Source: a bacterium (GTDB lineage Bacteria; Babelota; Babeliae; Babelales; Babelaceae). From it: a stretch of DNA of 34,112 nt. How positions within the stretch are numbered: position 1 is the stretch's first letter; every line of letters begins with the position of its first letter. Shown piece after piece: positions 7,635 through 14,170 of the stretch. Made by a program: the position numbers and the translations under genes. The notes beneath the pieces are model-generated. The model was not told the origin of the DNA. It did no database searches and saw only the letters and a program-made list of their open reading frames with translations. The stretch covers positions 1 to 34,112 of the forward strand of contig JAKAUO010000050.1 of the NCBI GenBank assembly GCA_021827715.1. The letters run 5' to 3'.

Positions 7635-9038
7635 TTACTTAACCGTCAGTTCCTTTCTGACATTATACTTGATAGGGCCTTTATCTGATGGCCAAATATC
7701 AAAGTTAAAGATATCCGTTGGAATTGCAAGAGATGTGCATGCATTTGGAATGTCAACAATCGCTTTAATATTTCCCTCAACAGGAGCGGCGCTCAATAAA
7801 ATGCACACCTGTTCACCGGTATACCCAAATTGTTTAAGGTAATCAATTGCATTCAGACAAGCGCGCCTGAACGACATACTCGCGTCCATGTAATACTGCT
7901 TATCGTTTTCATCAACAGAGAATCCTTCAAAAACGATATAATTGGAGTACTTTGGTTGCGGTTCTGCCGATTTGTATATAGGTTGTTTCAGGTTATATTT
8001 CTTTGCGCCCTGCTTGATAACATCTATTTTTAACTCTATCCAGCCAGCCATTTCAATTGCTCCGCAAAATGATATTTCTCCATCGCCCTCTGAAAAATGT
8101 AAATCGCCAACAGATAAGAGCGCGTCTTTAACATGCACGGGAAAGTAGATACGAGAACCCCGTGTAAATGAATTTATATCAGTGTTTCCACCATTTTCTC
8201 GAGGTGGCACTGTGCGGCAGCCTTCCCGCATAACACGTTCAGCATCACGGCCCTTAAGCTTGCCTACCACAGCGCTACGGGGATCTGGTGGGCAGGCAAG
8301 AGGAGGAACTCGATTAGGGTTCGTTTTGATAAGATCCTTTTCGCGCTTATTCCAACGTTTAAGCAGATCTCGTGATGGAGCCACGCCTATTACGCCCGGG
8401 TGAGCAATGCCTGAAAACCTCACCTCTGGTATATGTCTTGATGTGGCATAGACGCCATCAAAATCCCAGATAGCTTTTGCCGCATAGGGAAAATGATCAG
8501 TCAAAAAACTTCCACCATTTTCTTTTGCAAAGATACAGGTATAACCCCATTCATTGCCCTGTAGTGGCCCAATATCAATGATATCGACAACTAAAAGATC
8601 ACCGGGTTCAGTGCCGCGTACGGCAACAGGACCGCTTAAATAATGCACCTGATTAAGGTCAACGTTCTTGATATCAGTAGCATCGTCATTATTTTTTATT
8701 TGTCCGCCGGTCCAATCCAAGCACTCTATACGGACAGTTTCGCCAGGATCTATCATTGCTGTTGCTGGAATATCAGGGTGCCAACGATTATGTAAAGGGA
8801 ATGGTTGTTCATCTGCTTTTTTAGTAAGGTCAACAGAGATAATTTTTTTTGCCTTAACAGCAGTTCCTTTTTTATGACAATGCTGAGTCAATTTGTCTTC
8901 GGTTTTTATTTCATTATATATATTTTTTTGTTCTTTTTTTGAACTTTTTGCTTTACTTGCCCTACCACATAATGTCCCCTGTAAAGATGCGCTTAACAGC
9001 AATGTTGCTGCAAGCATCACATATATATTTTTCATCAC
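7635..9038 (-). CDS. Exported acetamidase/formamidase family protein
   Basis: A 467-residue member of the FmdA/AmdA family, metal-dependent amidohydrolases that split formamide or acetamide into ammonia and the acid. Family landmarks are HNRWHPDIPA, DPGETVRIECLDWTGGQI, LSGPVAVRGTEPGDLLVVDI, GVIGVAP and GNTDIN, and the overall length is normal. The protein starts with a signal peptide (MMKNIYVMLAATLLLSASLQG) and a lysine-rich linker of about 45 residues before the domain, so the amidase probably works outside the cytoplasm; family members are usually cytosolic. The ATG is preceded by AAGGAGAAGAAG. It has no obvious operon partners. A 24-nt palindrome lies about 70 nt upstream and may be its operator. 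The natural amide substrate is not known. Confidence 0.85.
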   Translation of the reverse strand: MMKNIYVMLAATLLLSASLQGTLCGRASKAKSSKKEQKNIYNEIKTEDKLTQHCHKKGTAVKAKKIISVDLTKKADEQPFPLHNRWHPDIPATAMIDPGETVRIECLDWTGGQIKNNDDATDIKNVDLNQVHYLSGPVAVRGTEPGDLLVVDIIDIGPLQGNEWGYTCIFAKENGGSFLTDHFPYAAKAIWDFDGVYATSRHIPEVRFSGIAHPGVIGVAPSRDLLKRWNKREKDLIKTNPNRVPPLACPPDPRSAVVGKLKGRDAERVMREGCRTVPPRENGGNTDINSFTRGSRIYFPVHVKDALLSVGDLHFSEGDGEISFCGAIEMAGWIELKIDVIKQGAKKYNLKQPIYKSAEPQPKYSNYIVFEGFSVDENDKQYYMDASMSFRRACLNAIDYLKQFGYTGEQVCILLSAAPVEGNIKAIVDIPNACTSLAIPTDIFNFDIWPSDKGPIKYNVRKELTVK

Positions 9039-9732: not shown

Positions 9733-11265
9733 TTATAATACATTAAGTGACTTATCAATAGAACGGTACATAAGCGCTTCTTGTACATGTTTAGGTAATA
9801 TTTCATCAGAGTCTTCTAAGTCTGCAATAGTACGTGAGATTTTTAGAAGTTTATGGTACCCACGCATGCTTAAATGCAATGTTTCAAATGCTTTTTTAAT
9901 AAGTTCTTGTGATGCAGCCGTGACCTTGCAATGTTCTTCTATCATTTCAGGTGTCATATACCCATTGCAGAGCGCTTCGTTATTATTAAAACGTTTTAAT
10001 TGCCGTTGACGCGCACATTCTACTTTTTTAAATAGTTCAGCAGATGAAAGTGAAGGTGCTGCTTGTTGCGTGTCATCATACGTTACATGGGGTAAATATA
10101 CTTGTAAATCTATACGGTCCAAGAGTGGTCCTGATAGTTTCTGCATATAGGAATATATCTGTTGTTTTGTGCATGAGCATTCCTTGCGCGTATCACCATA
10201 ATATCCACAAGGGCATGGGTTAAGTGCCGCAACAAGTAAAAAAGATGAGGGAAATGTGAGTGTTTGCTGTGCGCGTGAAATAGTTACCTTGCGTTCTTCA
10301 AGCGGTTGGCGCAAAGCTTCTAATGTTGGGCGGCGAAATTCAGTAAACTCATCAAGAAAAAGAATACCATTATGCGCTAGACTTATCTCGCCCGGTTGTG
10401 GCGTTGAACCGCCGCCAACCAAGCCAGGTGAAGATATCGTATGATGTGGTGACCGGCACGGGCGCTGAGTAATTAATTGTTCTGCAGGAAGTTTGCCACA
10501 AATAGAATAAATCTTACTCGTTTCAAGCATTTCATTAAATGAAAGTGGCGGCATAATAGTAATCAGCCGCTGCGCAAGCATAGTTTTACCTGATCCGGGT
10601 GATCCAACAAACAAAAGATTATGTCTTCCGGCAGCAGCAATTTGTAATACGCGCTTTGCTTGAGTTTGTCCTTTTACCTGTGCCAAATCTAAAAGATGCT
10701 GCGCGTGCGCATTGGTTATTTTTCTTATTTGAAATGGTATGGCCAATGTTTCCTTACGCATAATACTGACAATTTCAGTCAGATGCGCAACGGGAATAAT
10801 CTCTAAACCTTCAATAAGCGCAGCTTCTGGCGCATTTTCAACAGGCAATATAATGCGTTTTACCCCGAGTTTAAGTGCGTCAAAGGCGATAGCCAATACG
10901 CCTAGCACGGGTTTAATGCGGCCATCAAGCGCCAGCTCACCAATAAAAAAAGTCTCTTTAAGGTAATCTGCATCATAATCACATAGTTTTGCTGCATAAA
11001 TGATCCCTAAAGCTATAGCAACGTCAAAAAGACAGCCCTCTTTTTTAATATGTGCCGGCGCTAAATTAACGGTGATTTTTCTTTCTGGCAACGTGTAACC
11101 ACAATTTTTAAGCGCGGTTATAACCCGTTGTTTACTTTCCTTAACGGCAAGGTCAGGCAACCCCACAAGAAAAAATTGAAGCATGCCAAATGAAAGGTCC
11201 ACCTCAATTTCAATTTTATGTGCATGAATACCAATAACTGTTGCAGAATAGATTTTTGTGTGCAT
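9733..11265 (-). CDS. comM: YifB/ComM-family Mg-chelatase-like AAA+ ATPase
   Basis: A 510-residue ComM homologue, full length. In naturally competent bacteria ComM is a hexameric helicase that helps branch migration during integration of incoming DNA. The domains in order are an N-terminal Lon-protease-like domain (1-~170, with PERKITVNLAPAHIKKEG), the AAA+ module with Walker A GSPGSGKT (221-228) and Walker B ILFLDEFTEF, the cysteine motif CPCGYYGD, and the C-terminal Mg_chelatase_C region (MRGYHKLLKISRTIADLE). All key residues are present. Together with radA and the pseudopilin operon in this window it is consistent with DNA uptake or recombination, but none of these is diagnostic of competence. 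Confidence 0.95.
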   Translation of the reverse strand: MHTKIYSATVIGIHAHKIEIEVDLSFGMLQFFLVGLPDLAVKESKQRVITALKNCGYTLPERKITVNLAPAHIKKEGCLFDVAIALGIIYAAKLCDYDADYLKETFFIGELALDGRIKPVLGVLAIAFDALKLGVKRIILPVENAPEAALIEGLEIIPVAHLTEIVSIMRKETLAIPFQIRKITNAHAQHLLDLAQVKGQTQAKRVLQIAAAGRHNLLFVGSPGSGKTMLAQRLITIMPPLSFNEMLETSKIYSICGKLPAEQLITQRPCRSPHHTISSPGLVGGGSTPQPGEISLAHNGILFLDEFTEFRRPTLEALRQPLEERKVTISRAQQTLTFPSSFLLVAALNPCPCGYYGDTRKECSCTKQQIYSYMQKLSGPLLDRIDLQVYLPHVTYDDTQQAAPSLSSAELFKKVECARQRQLKRFNNNEALCNGYMTPEMIEEHCKVTAASQELIKKAFETLHLSMRGYHKLLKISRTIADLEDSDEILPKHVQEALMYRSIDKSLNVL

Positions 11266-11406
11266 TTTGTAACTTTTTATTTTTTATAAAATTGTATTTT
11301 ACTCAAAGATTAAATATAGCCTAAAATTTATGGAATTTAAATAGCCAAAAAAAGGGACTCGAGGTACTCTATGCTATAAGTTTTGTTGAATCTTAAAAAA
11401 ATAGCC

Positions 11407-11448
11407 GCTCGGTGGGCCTGCCCACCAGAGCCTTGGCGTAGGTGGGTC
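11407..11448 (+). repeat. GC-rich hairpin element covering the Shine-Dalgarno region
   Basis: GCTC-GGTGGGC (11407-11417) pairs with GCCCACC-A-GAGC (11420-11431). A second GGTGGG at 11441-11446, just before the ATG at 11450, can pair with the same CCCACC (11421-11426) instead. The GC content is far above the flanking AT-rich DNA. From memory it resembles short dispersed palindromes found in several bacterial genomes, but no second copy was seen in this window. Confidence 0.55.
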
Positions 11449-11449
11449 T

Positions 11450-14170
11450 ATGCGTATCAGACATTTTCTTTTATATCTGTGTCTCTTGAATAGTAATCTC
11501 CAGGCGGGCACTCTTTTTAATCTTCCAAACCCCATAAGTGCGACAGCTTTCGGAAAATTGAGTGGCCTCTTTTTTGTAGGCTCGGCAATACCTAGTACAG
11601 ATTCTGCTGCGGTATATGCATTAGCTATTGCAGGGCGTAATGACACCAGTTTTACAGGAATTGCACCTCAAGAAATTTTTATCAATGGTGTATCGCAGGT
11701 AAATCCTTTGTATGGAGCGCAGATAGATCTTCTTGTTACCACCGGCCGTTTTGCGCAAATAGCAGCAAGCCAAACTGATTCATTGCCTGCGTTAACGCTT
11801 GCCAATGACCCGAATCATGTCTATGTAGTAACTTCTTATACGGCAGGAAGCAATCCTACATTGCTTATATCGCCTACGTTACTTGATACTTCAGGTAATG
11901 CTGCAAGCAGCATTGATTCATTGGCAGGATCCGTGCAAGGAGTTGTCTATGCTGCAGTCGGCCCGCAGGGTGGCGTATTTGGCCAACCAGGAAGCGGTAT
12001 TGCTGATGCGCAATTGGTTACACAAACTACAGGATTGAGTCTGACCTTCGGACTTCCTGCATCAATTGATGTCGCCAGCCCCCTTGTTGCTTTGGGTGGT
12101 CCATTGCAATCGCTCACTGACCCTACGTTGTATGTTTCTAATTATAAAACCATACGTAATGGTGACGAAATAAATGTCGGAACGCTTTTTGCAGGATTTA
12201 ATCTTGTTGGTGGTTCTGGTGCTTCTGATGGTGGCATCGCTGTTGTTTCTACCCTGGGTAATGTGGGTGCTCCCTTAACGCTTTTGCAAATTACTCCTGC
12301 CACCGCAGTCACTACTGATTCGATTATTGCAGCAACTGGCACGAACACACAGATACATGTTTTTTTTCTTGGTACTTTGTTTCCTTCGGTGGGCACACAA
12401 TATTTAGTAGTTGTTGGTGGCGTAGGTGATGCCAATGCTGATCCGCTGAATGTCTATGCGATGCCATTAACCGTAAGCGGACTTTTAGCAAACGTAAATG
12501 CAGCGCCCACGGTGGTGCCTGCAACAGGGCTTTTTATGCAGCGCGAGTTTACTATACCTGCAGTTGCGCCAGGTGATTTGTACAGTTCCTCCAATGTGCA
12601 GGCCCAGGTAGGTGGCGGCGCTGCACCGGGAACTATTACCTCATTGTATACTTCTGGAGACTCAGTTATAATCACGGTACAAGAATCGGCAACGCAGTCT
12701 CCCGGCATCTTTTATTCTCAAGCAATTTTTGATATAACGCCAACAATTATTGGATGGACACCCTGGCAACGTGCGGTTCAAACAGAGGGGCAAGCGCAAA
12801 CTTCATTATATGATCCGGTAAATGTGCAATTCTGGTATACGACCGCATTGACCAGTACAGTGCAATCTGTAGTGCGAACTGCATGGAATGAAAATGAGAC
12901 CCCATTGGTACAATTGCTTAATAATGCCTTACCTCTTGATCAGGGCGGTATACAGGGAATTACCGATCTGGTTGCAACATCCTCATTGTTTTCTCAAGTG
13001 AGTGGCAACCGCATCAGCGCGACAATTTTTACTGGCTTTAAAACTATTGTTCTTGCTGAAACGGCAGTAGCCAATAGTGGTATTCTTACCCCGATAACTT
13101 CATATCCCCAGGCTCAGATGTTTACAGATGGAACGCTTCAAGGCTTTACGCCACCTGCGCAATATATCAGTATGACTGGCGGCGCTTTGGCCGATTTATC
13201 AGCAATTATTGCAGCTACCGTAGTAAATGACGGAACACAATCGTGGATCGTCGTAGGCGGTAATGGTGGGTTGGCGGTTCTTGCTCTGCCAGATGGCAGC
13301 GGCATTCTCAATGGGAGCATCACTCAAAATTTCAACGGGATTTCACCTGACCTGGCATGGCAGCCGTTAGGAAACTATAGCAACGTACGCAAGCTTGTTT
13401 GCCAAAATGGATTTTTATATATTTTAACTGATACCCTTTTTGAACGGGTAGAACTTACTTTTGATCTGATAAGCGGTGTAACGCCCTTTAATGCTACTAA
13501 TTTGGCAACGGCCGGCACATTATCGAATAAACTCTATCTCTTTTTTTCTGATGTTATAGTATCTGAGCCTTTAGTGGTTTTAGCAACCAGTTCCGGGTTA
13601 ATACGAGGTGGTAACGGTGTCTCTGTGCAAGATGCGGCATCTGCGCAAGAAATGAATTGGACCGAAGTGGTAATGCCAGAAACTACCGGGTGCGCAACAC
13701 GCTTATTAGCTATTACCCAAACGGGGCAAGAGACAGATTTGTATCAAGAACCACCGGGAGTTTCTGGAAATCTCTATGTGCTTTCAGGAAATGTAAGTTT
13801 GGATCAAGCGCGTATATACCGGTATGTGGTTACCTATTCAAGTTCTGGTATCAGTGACACTACCTTCCAATTGTTTAATGATTATTTTGTGATAGGGGAA
13901 CCGACATTTTTTATCAATATGGGCTATTATCGTAACTTTTTTTACACCGATGGGCTGTTATGGTCAACATCAAGAAGCCGTTATATACTAGAAAAATTGT
14001 TTGTACAATCATTACCCGTACCCTTTATAAGTGGTTCGCGTGCACGGGTTGCCAAAAATGGGGGATTTTTTACTGATGCTGCGGCACATTCAGTAGGGTT
14101 AGTAAAACGTCTTTCGGGCCTTGGTTCGTGGGTGATCCCCGGTGATTTTGGATTGGTAGTGCATCAATAA
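11450..14170 (+). CDS. Large secreted beta-rich protein (possible beta-propeller surface protein)
   Basis: A 906-residue protein with a signal peptide (MRIRHFLLYLCLLNSNLQA). It is low in charge and rich in Gly, Ser, Thr, Val and Ala. Short strand-turn-strand units alternate throughout (for example LLVTTGRFAQIAAS, VYVVTSYTAG, QSWIVVGGNGGLAVL, GFLYILTDTLFERV), which suggests a beta-propeller or similar extracellular beta fold; no specific family is recognised. Base composition is visibly richer in GC than the neighbours. The only start compatible with the signal peptide is 11450, and its ribosome site (AGGTGGG) lies within the hairpin element before it. The outer-membrane-type gene 23 nt downstream suggests the pair forms a surface or secretion unit. 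Confidence 0.75.
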   Translation: MRIRHFLLYLCLLNSNLQAGTLFNLPNPISATAFGKLSGLFFVGSAIPSTDSAAVYALAIAGRNDTSFTGIAPQEIFINGVSQVNPLYGAQIDLLVTTGRFAQIAASQTDSLPALTLANDPNHVYVVTSYTAGSNPTLLISPTLLDTSGNAASSIDSLAGSVQGVVYAAVGPQGGVFGQPGSGIADAQLVTQTTGLSLTFGLPASIDVASPLVALGGPLQSLTDPTLYVSNYKTIRNGDEINVGTLFAGFNLVGGSGASDGGIAVVSTLGNVGAPLTLLQITPATAVTTDSIIAATGTNTQIHVFFLGTLFPSVGTQYLVVVGGVGDANADPLNVYAMPLTVSGLLANVNAAPTVVPATGLFMQREFTIPAVAPGDLYSSSNVQAQVGGGAAPGTITSLYTSGDSVIITVQESATQSPGIFYSQAIFDITPTIIGWTPWQRAVQTEGQAQTSLYDPVNVQFWYTTALTSTVQSVVRTAWNENETPLVQLLNNALPLDQGGIQGITDLVATSSLFSQVSGNRISATIFTGFKTIVLAETAVANSGILTPITSYPQAQMFTDGTLQGFTPPAQYISMTGGALADLSAIIAATVVNDGTQSWIVVGGNGGLAVLALPDGSGILNGSITQNFNGISPDLAWQPLGNYSNVRKLVCQNGFLYILTDTLFERVELTFDLISGVTPFNATNLATAGTLSNKLYLFFSDVIVSEPLVVLATSSGLIRGGNGVSVQDAASAQEMNWTEVVMPETTGCATRLLAITQTGQETDLYQEPPGVSGNLYVLSGNVSLDQARIYRYVVTYSSSGISDTTFQLFNDYFVIGEPTFFINMGYYRNFFYTDGLLWSTSRSRYILEKLFVQSLPVPFISGSRARVAKNGGFFTDAAAHSVGLVKRLSGLGSWVIPGDFGLVVHQ

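Follow-up and report, generated by a model that had tools for sequence, protein, structure and literature searches.

A CAGG-tagged, REP-like palindrome present in many bacterial phyla probably provides the ribosome site of a 906-residue protein gene

The palindromic sequence at positions 11411-11446 of the window (the whole stretch of 34,112 nucleotides of bacterial DNA analysed here) belongs to a dispersed family of small hairpins with a covarying stem. The leaders of the same-genus orthologues of the downstream gene, which encodes a 906-residue protein, have no such element, and copies in the window's own genome (G000; relatives are numbered from G001 onward) prefer the ends of tRNA and tmRNA genes. 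We consider it likely that the sequence is an inserted copy of a REP-like palindrome shared by many phyla, and that it acts as a passive replacement Shine-Dalgarno (SD) sequence, not as a switch.

The copy was placed with covariance models R1 and R2 and reads CCCACC-TAC-GCC-AA-GGC-TCT-GGTGGG-CAGG-CCCACC on the minus strand, its parts following from 11446 down to 11411 in the order arm 1, head, arm 2, tag and arm 3. Arm 1 (11441-11446) is CCCACC on the minus strand and GGTGGG on the plus strand, where it forms, together with A11440, the SD-like sequence. The head (11427-11440) is TAC-GCCAAGGC-TCT, a GCYAARGC core with a TNC/TNC internal loop, although its 3′ triplet, TCT, deviates from the TNC consensus. 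Arm 2 (11421-11426; GGTGGG on the minus and CCCACC on the plus strand) is able to pair with either arm 1 or arm 3, the latter (11411-11416) being a repeat of arm 1 and again GGTGGG on the plus strand. The tag CAGG (11417-11420; CCTG on the plus strand) lies between arms 2 and 3. An earlier note on this DNA had given the positions of the three arms and of the ATG at 11450, all of which were exact when checked by inspection of the sequence. With up to three mismatches allowed, the three-arm pattern occurs once in the window, as compared with a mean of 0.01 in 100 dinucleotide shuffles; the layout is not a product of chance.

A DNA search of the own genome with 66 bases around the hairpin returned the site itself, one 17-base match and nothing else convincing, and GGTGGGNNNNCCCACC is unique to this site in the whole 1.006-Mb assembly. 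An abundant exact repeat was rejected, as there was no full second copy of the 66 bases; the family escapes exact search because it is visible only when the stem is allowed to vary. With one mismatch allowed, the head NGNAGCYTTRGCGNAGN is found at 17 places in the assembly versus 2 for the reversed pattern. Most of these 17 places share one plan, in the minus-strand orientation: CCnnnC, TNC, GCYAARGC, TNC, GnnnGG, CAGG and often CCn again; a few, such as L019, L024 and L025, do not fold to it. Model R1, which was built from ten other copies of the same genome with the window copy omitted, matches the window at 11448-11413 on the minus strand with 40.3 bits (E=2.6e-8; runner-up in the window, 7.5 bits), and model R2 scores the window copy at 45.4 bits. 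The side remark in the earlier note, that a GC-rich dispersed palindrome had possibly been inserted here, was right. At the gathering score, Rfam has no match in the window and only tRNA and tmRNA in eight element loci. Elsewhere in the window, an imperfect long palindrome (CTTGCCTACCA…TGGTGGGCAGGCAAG) lies at 8255-8300, inside a formamidase gene (7635-9038, minus strand). It has GGTGGGCAGGC in common with the element (R1, 7.4 bits, E=5.7) and is possibly a decayed copy or a chance resemblance.

The family is defined by a variable 6-bp stem of CC…/…GG form that covaries, the TNC/TNC internal loop, the GCYAARGC head and the CAGG tag, and its 36-position model falls within the 20-40 bp size range of REPs. 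In the ten R1 copies, 92.5% of the cells of the stem are paired, a value reached in none of 500 shuffles; among 58 copies (51 from other genomes and 7 from the own genome) it is 96.4%. Double-sided changes in the 58 copies amount to 89 cells versus 30.1 in shuffles, none of 500 being as high, and pairing falls to 25-55% when the partner is shifted by one to three columns. The left arm lay outside the search pattern used for other genomes, yet in 103 of 114 sites it matches arm 2 at five or all six positions of the helix. The innermost pair likewise covaries between C-G and T-A, though the pattern let either base vary independently. Stem variants are therefore kept by complementary changes, as in REPs. 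The stem begins with CC in 113 of 115 sites, and the tag is CAGG in all 115. The pattern fixed both the head and the tag, and conservation of those letters in the set that it found is by construction; own-genome copies found without the tag constraint keep CA(G/T/A)(G/A), with one having CGGC. In the window's group the head is sometimes longer, with an extended inner stem, and the flanking TNC triplets are mostly kept. Tandem arrays of elements with a 30-31 base period and no spacers were seen in L120 (4635-4726) and L090 (2293-2359).

Species-genome contigs with the pattern CTNCGCYAARGCTNCGNNNGGCAGGC number at least 114 (115 distinct sites), a figure to be taken as a minimum and not as the result of a survey, whereas about 0.5 matches are expected by our own arithmetic in 257 billion bases at even base composition. 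Phyla were assigned from record titles, which name Patescibacteria, Opitutus, Kiritimatiellae and other Verrucomicrobiota, Phycisphaerales, Omnitrophota, Dependentiae/Babeliales, Acidobacteria, Bacteroidota, Cloacimonadota, Elusimicrobia, a cyanobacterial bin and Dehalococcoidales. Named isolates of Geomonas and Bradyrhizobium also carry the element, which argues against a binning artefact. With up to 150 candidates scored per genome, model searches found copies in all 18 pattern-positive genomes searched (1-70 each). Within the own genome and 18 relatives, R2 found copies in 10 of 19: 23 matches in G000, 28 in G005, 29 in G006, 9 in G012, 5 in G004, 3 each in G011 and G016, and one each in G002, G008 and G014. 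Copies of the window's group resemble those in records titled Dependentiae or Babeliales, and on this ground the group is probably Babeliales-like. In a rough census of 117 sites, 9 are no more than 30 nt away from an ORF start, 16 are equally close to a stop and 61 lie inside ORFs, the last being an upper figure because the ORF picker was crude and elements may extend ORFs. A phage source was rejected: the phage collection gave one weak match to the 66 bases around the hairpin (E=0.1), and viral contigs held few occurrences, 23 stretches counted as matches to the core pattern.

If the element were a REP moved by a RAYT (a Y1 transposase, PF01797), only with a tag other than GTAG, then its size, the position of the tag beside an imperfect palindrome and the covarying stem would all be accounted for. 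The same holds for the 12 pairs of neighbouring copies less than 300 bp apart among the matches listed, many neighbours being in opposite orientation. PF01797 was sought in 49 element-bearing genomes out of those behind the 114 loci and found in 35, and in locus L290 a Y1 ORF has a diverged copy on each side (two in all; 14.4 bits, E=0.46), at a distance of about 100-130 bp. However, PF01797 was not found in G000, G004, G005, G006 or G012, all of which bear the element, and 33 Y1 loci had no R2 match below E=0.4. The nearest copy and Y1 gene start 1.66 kb apart among the matches listed (150 copies and 113 Y1 genes in 18 genomes), and the loci and genomes examined showed no Y1 gene with typical copies on both sides. 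We regard RAYT as an unlikely mobiliser, given its lack in several element genomes and the distance of the closest pair among the matches listed. At L290 (1240-2100), a Parcubacteria Y1 gene is enclosed by a repeat block in two direct copies, and this block contains a diverged form of the element.

The copies in the window's own genome have a preference for tRNA and tmRNA ends. Contexts were read in fetched loci only (26 copies in G000, 25 in G005 and 23 in G006), using 88 of 90 rows after two were dropped as the same place. In G000, tRNA genes called by ARAGORN account for 14 of 26 copies, each of which begins precisely at the CCA of the gene, and one more begins on the CCA of the tmRNA, for a total of 15, while two further copies follow a tRNA-like tail without a called gene. 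In G005, 8 of 25 copies are on tRNA ends and one is on the tmRNA; in G006, 2 of 23 are on tRNA ends. In the Val-Asn-Asp tRNA cluster, G000 has an element after each tRNA, whereas G003 and G008 have none. After tRNA-Asp, G003 reads CCA-CTTTTTAT, whereas G000 reads CCA, the element and then CCA-CTTTTCC, an arrangement that would fit an insert with a CCA repeat at either end. The G001 genome yields no match to the model, but its stem-like sequences downstream of tRNA-Asn and tRNA-Val resemble decayed copies. The tRNA-end copies of G005 at L230, L234 and L235 share the same long inner head insert (~30 nt extra), as if a sub-type had spread among the tRNA genes of this genome. The tmRNA genes of two different genera, in G000 (L205) and G005 (L235), both bear the element on the CCA end.

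This preference raises the question of whether the element is a functional trailer hairpin of tRNA and tmRNA genes, with a role in 3′ processing or termination, the other copies, including that in the window, being strays. The 15 of 26 fetched copies placed exactly on CCA ends with stem pairing kept speak for such a role, as do the sequences after tRNA-Val and tRNA-Asn in G001, which are decayed yet stem-like. On the other hand, G003 and G008 do without the element after the same three tRNAs, the remaining nine of the 19 genomes have no match at all, and beyond the window's group only 8 of the 117 sites in the census are on tRNA ends. A trailer function of this kind is improbable. For the window copy, a role as a terminator was rejected since no intrinsic terminator (a GC stem followed by a T run) was found in 11150-11560. 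We return to our preferred reading, an inserted REP-like copy, and suggest that the element may spread by a route that favours CC(A) sites.

The 906-residue gene (11450-14170, plus strand) lies downstream of the element and outside it, as does its divergent neighbour, a YifB-family AAA ATPase (9733-11265, minus strand). The protein has no match in Pfam or NCBIfam, but of the 12 genomes searched within its family 11 have the gene, with identity down to 29%. Its N-terminal start resembles a signal peptide. A pattern search of species-genome contigs for further relatives of the protein matched 22 stretches, of which none was confirmed. In the same genus, G001 (64% identity) and G002 (59%) each have an orthologue with the divergent YifB-side sequence upstream and an ATGCGTA start, which supports the start at ATG 11450. 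Their leaders have neither the element nor such a hairpin; of the three lineages, then, G000 alone gained the element or retained it. The presence or absence of this single copy was judged against genomes that are 59-64% identical at the gene, and the exact ends of the insert are for that reason not fixed. It should be noted that leader length differs among the orthologues for reasons besides the element.

In the G000 lineage the element would thus have come to lie where it is now, 3 nt before the start codon. Arm 1 is the best anti-SD match ahead of ATG 11450, its anti-SD duplex having a predicted energy of -7.7 kcal/mol versus -3.3 and -4.0 in the two orthologous leaders. As this is the strongest match of the three leaders, the inserted element probably supplies the present ribosome site of the 906-residue gene. 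Among the 15 own-genome copies for which ORF context was tested, the window copy is the sole one that lies up to 50 nt upstream of an ORF start (ORFs of at least 80 aa).

The earlier note had also proposed that two mutually exclusive hairpins form a translational switch for the 906-residue gene. In such a switch, hairpin A (11411-11416 with 11421-11426, the tag doubling as its loop) and hairpin B (11421-11426 with 11441-11446) would exchange, upon a signal, a choice of start site or cleavage, to free or hide the SD. The two pairings are indeed mutually exclusive, since both hairpins draw on arm 2, and either can form, but folding of both alternatives gave a lopsided rather than a balanced pair. 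Pair probabilities within 11380-11499 are 0.985-0.998 for A and about 0.001 for B, A being favoured because GCTC at 11407-11410 pairs with GAGC at 11428-11431 outside the arm 3/arm 2 helix and extends the hairpin to 11407-11431 on the plus strand. The ensemble energies are -31.85 kcal/mol for A and -27.61 kcal/mol for B, a cost of 4.2 kcal/mol for forcing B and not the two states of similar free energy expected of a switch, and the alternative structures are not conserved in the orthologous leaders of G001 and G002. The 91-nt region as a whole has no exceptional stability (z -0.71): 47 of 200 shuffles gave folds as stable or more so, and the site would not have stood out on this measure by itself. 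For RNA starting at 11372, 11380 or 11400, A has a probability of 0.954-0.997 at all lengths tried and B of at most 0.038, whereas in RNA that starts at 11417 or 11421 and reaches 11446 or beyond B attains 0.954-0.998. With a long leader the SD should accordingly be accessible for the most part, whereas it would be concealed only if the RNA began, or were cut, within hairpin A. The number of promoter-like matches in 11150-11560 is what chance would give (2 versus 1.3 expected).

The structure is also not confined to this gene. In 18 of 114 copies from other genomes, five or more of the six bases of arm 2 can pair with the sequence that follows CAGG, as compared with a mean of 5.8 and a maximum of 12 in 2000 shuffles, and hence the three arms belong to the element family everywhere, which argues against a gene-specific switch. 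By the earlier note's own account, its proposal would be refuted if copies were numerous and unrelated to start codons, and this is what the census gave for the copies in other places. We conclude that a switch is very improbable. Our preferred reading is that, in a leader starting at or before 11400, hairpin A would form first and hold, leaving the SD-like arm 1 mostly available, although part of the SD region is base-paired in the fold predicted for 11380-11499; the element would then act as a passive replacement SD. Its effect on translation may depend on where the transcript starts or on cleavage.

An element of about 30 bp that keeps one head and one tag in many phyla, including Patescibacteria and Verrucomicrobiota and, among isolates, Geomonas and Bradyrhizobium, is either very old or very mobile. 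Its exact seat on CCA ends in the window's genome and in some relatives amounts to a target rule and supplies collections of filled and unfilled sites by means of which the mobiliser could be sought, and the window copy illustrates how such a repeat may donate an SD sequence. We tentatively speculate, with less confidence than we have in the reading of the window copy, that these hairpins form a third bacteria-wide superfamily of tiny, CAGG-tagged mobile elements, in which the arms match the place of insertion, the hairpins of some lineages specifically colonise tRNA and tmRNA genes at their CCA ends, the mechanism is possibly tRNA-primed or CCA-recognising, and new ribosome-binding sites arise as a by-product. 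Six forms of the element core were not found in a full-text literature search, and literature searches turned up no paper that describes the element in its title or the start of its abstract.

Most REPs have been sorted into the GTAG and CGTC superfamilies (Di Nocera et al. 2013, PMC3733652), from which the element is set apart here by their text descriptions in the parts of that account drawn upon. Like GTAG REPs, the element is a palindrome in the 20-40 bp range with complementary stem changes and a tag at one end, occurs in clusters and dimers, and has some copies inside genes; like GTAG-3 REPs, it has non-complementary di- or trinucleotides between the stem and a GC-rich loop (PMC3733652). 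Unlike them, its tag is CAGG (CCTG on the other strand) and not GTAG, GYAG, GYRG, GTRG, GTMG or GTGG, copies sit on tRNA and tmRNA genes at the CCA end, a location that does not figure in those parts of the account (PMC3733652), and a RAYT with typical copies on both sides did not turn up in the loci and genomes examined here. With the CGTC REPs, which include RPE-4, RPE-6 and dRS3, it shares an occurrence in several phyla, no known dedicated transposase and CCA-like tails; however, these are described there as having a CGTC tag, 8-9 bp stems starting with AT and loops of 4-5 bases, whereas the element has 6-bp CC…GG stems, the TNC/TNC internal loop and the CAGG tag (PMC3733652). The use of tRNA genes as places of insertion recalls the tRNA-gene-targeting retrotransposons of Dictyostelium and yeast, which, in the portion of the source consulted (PMC5006619), are large and eukaryotic, while the element is a bacterial hairpin of about 30 bp that starts on the CCA itself. 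Overall, judged from its sequence features, the element is of a REP-like kind in its size, covarying stem, tag, copy number and opposite-orientation neighbours, and carries neither a GTAG nor a CGTC tag.
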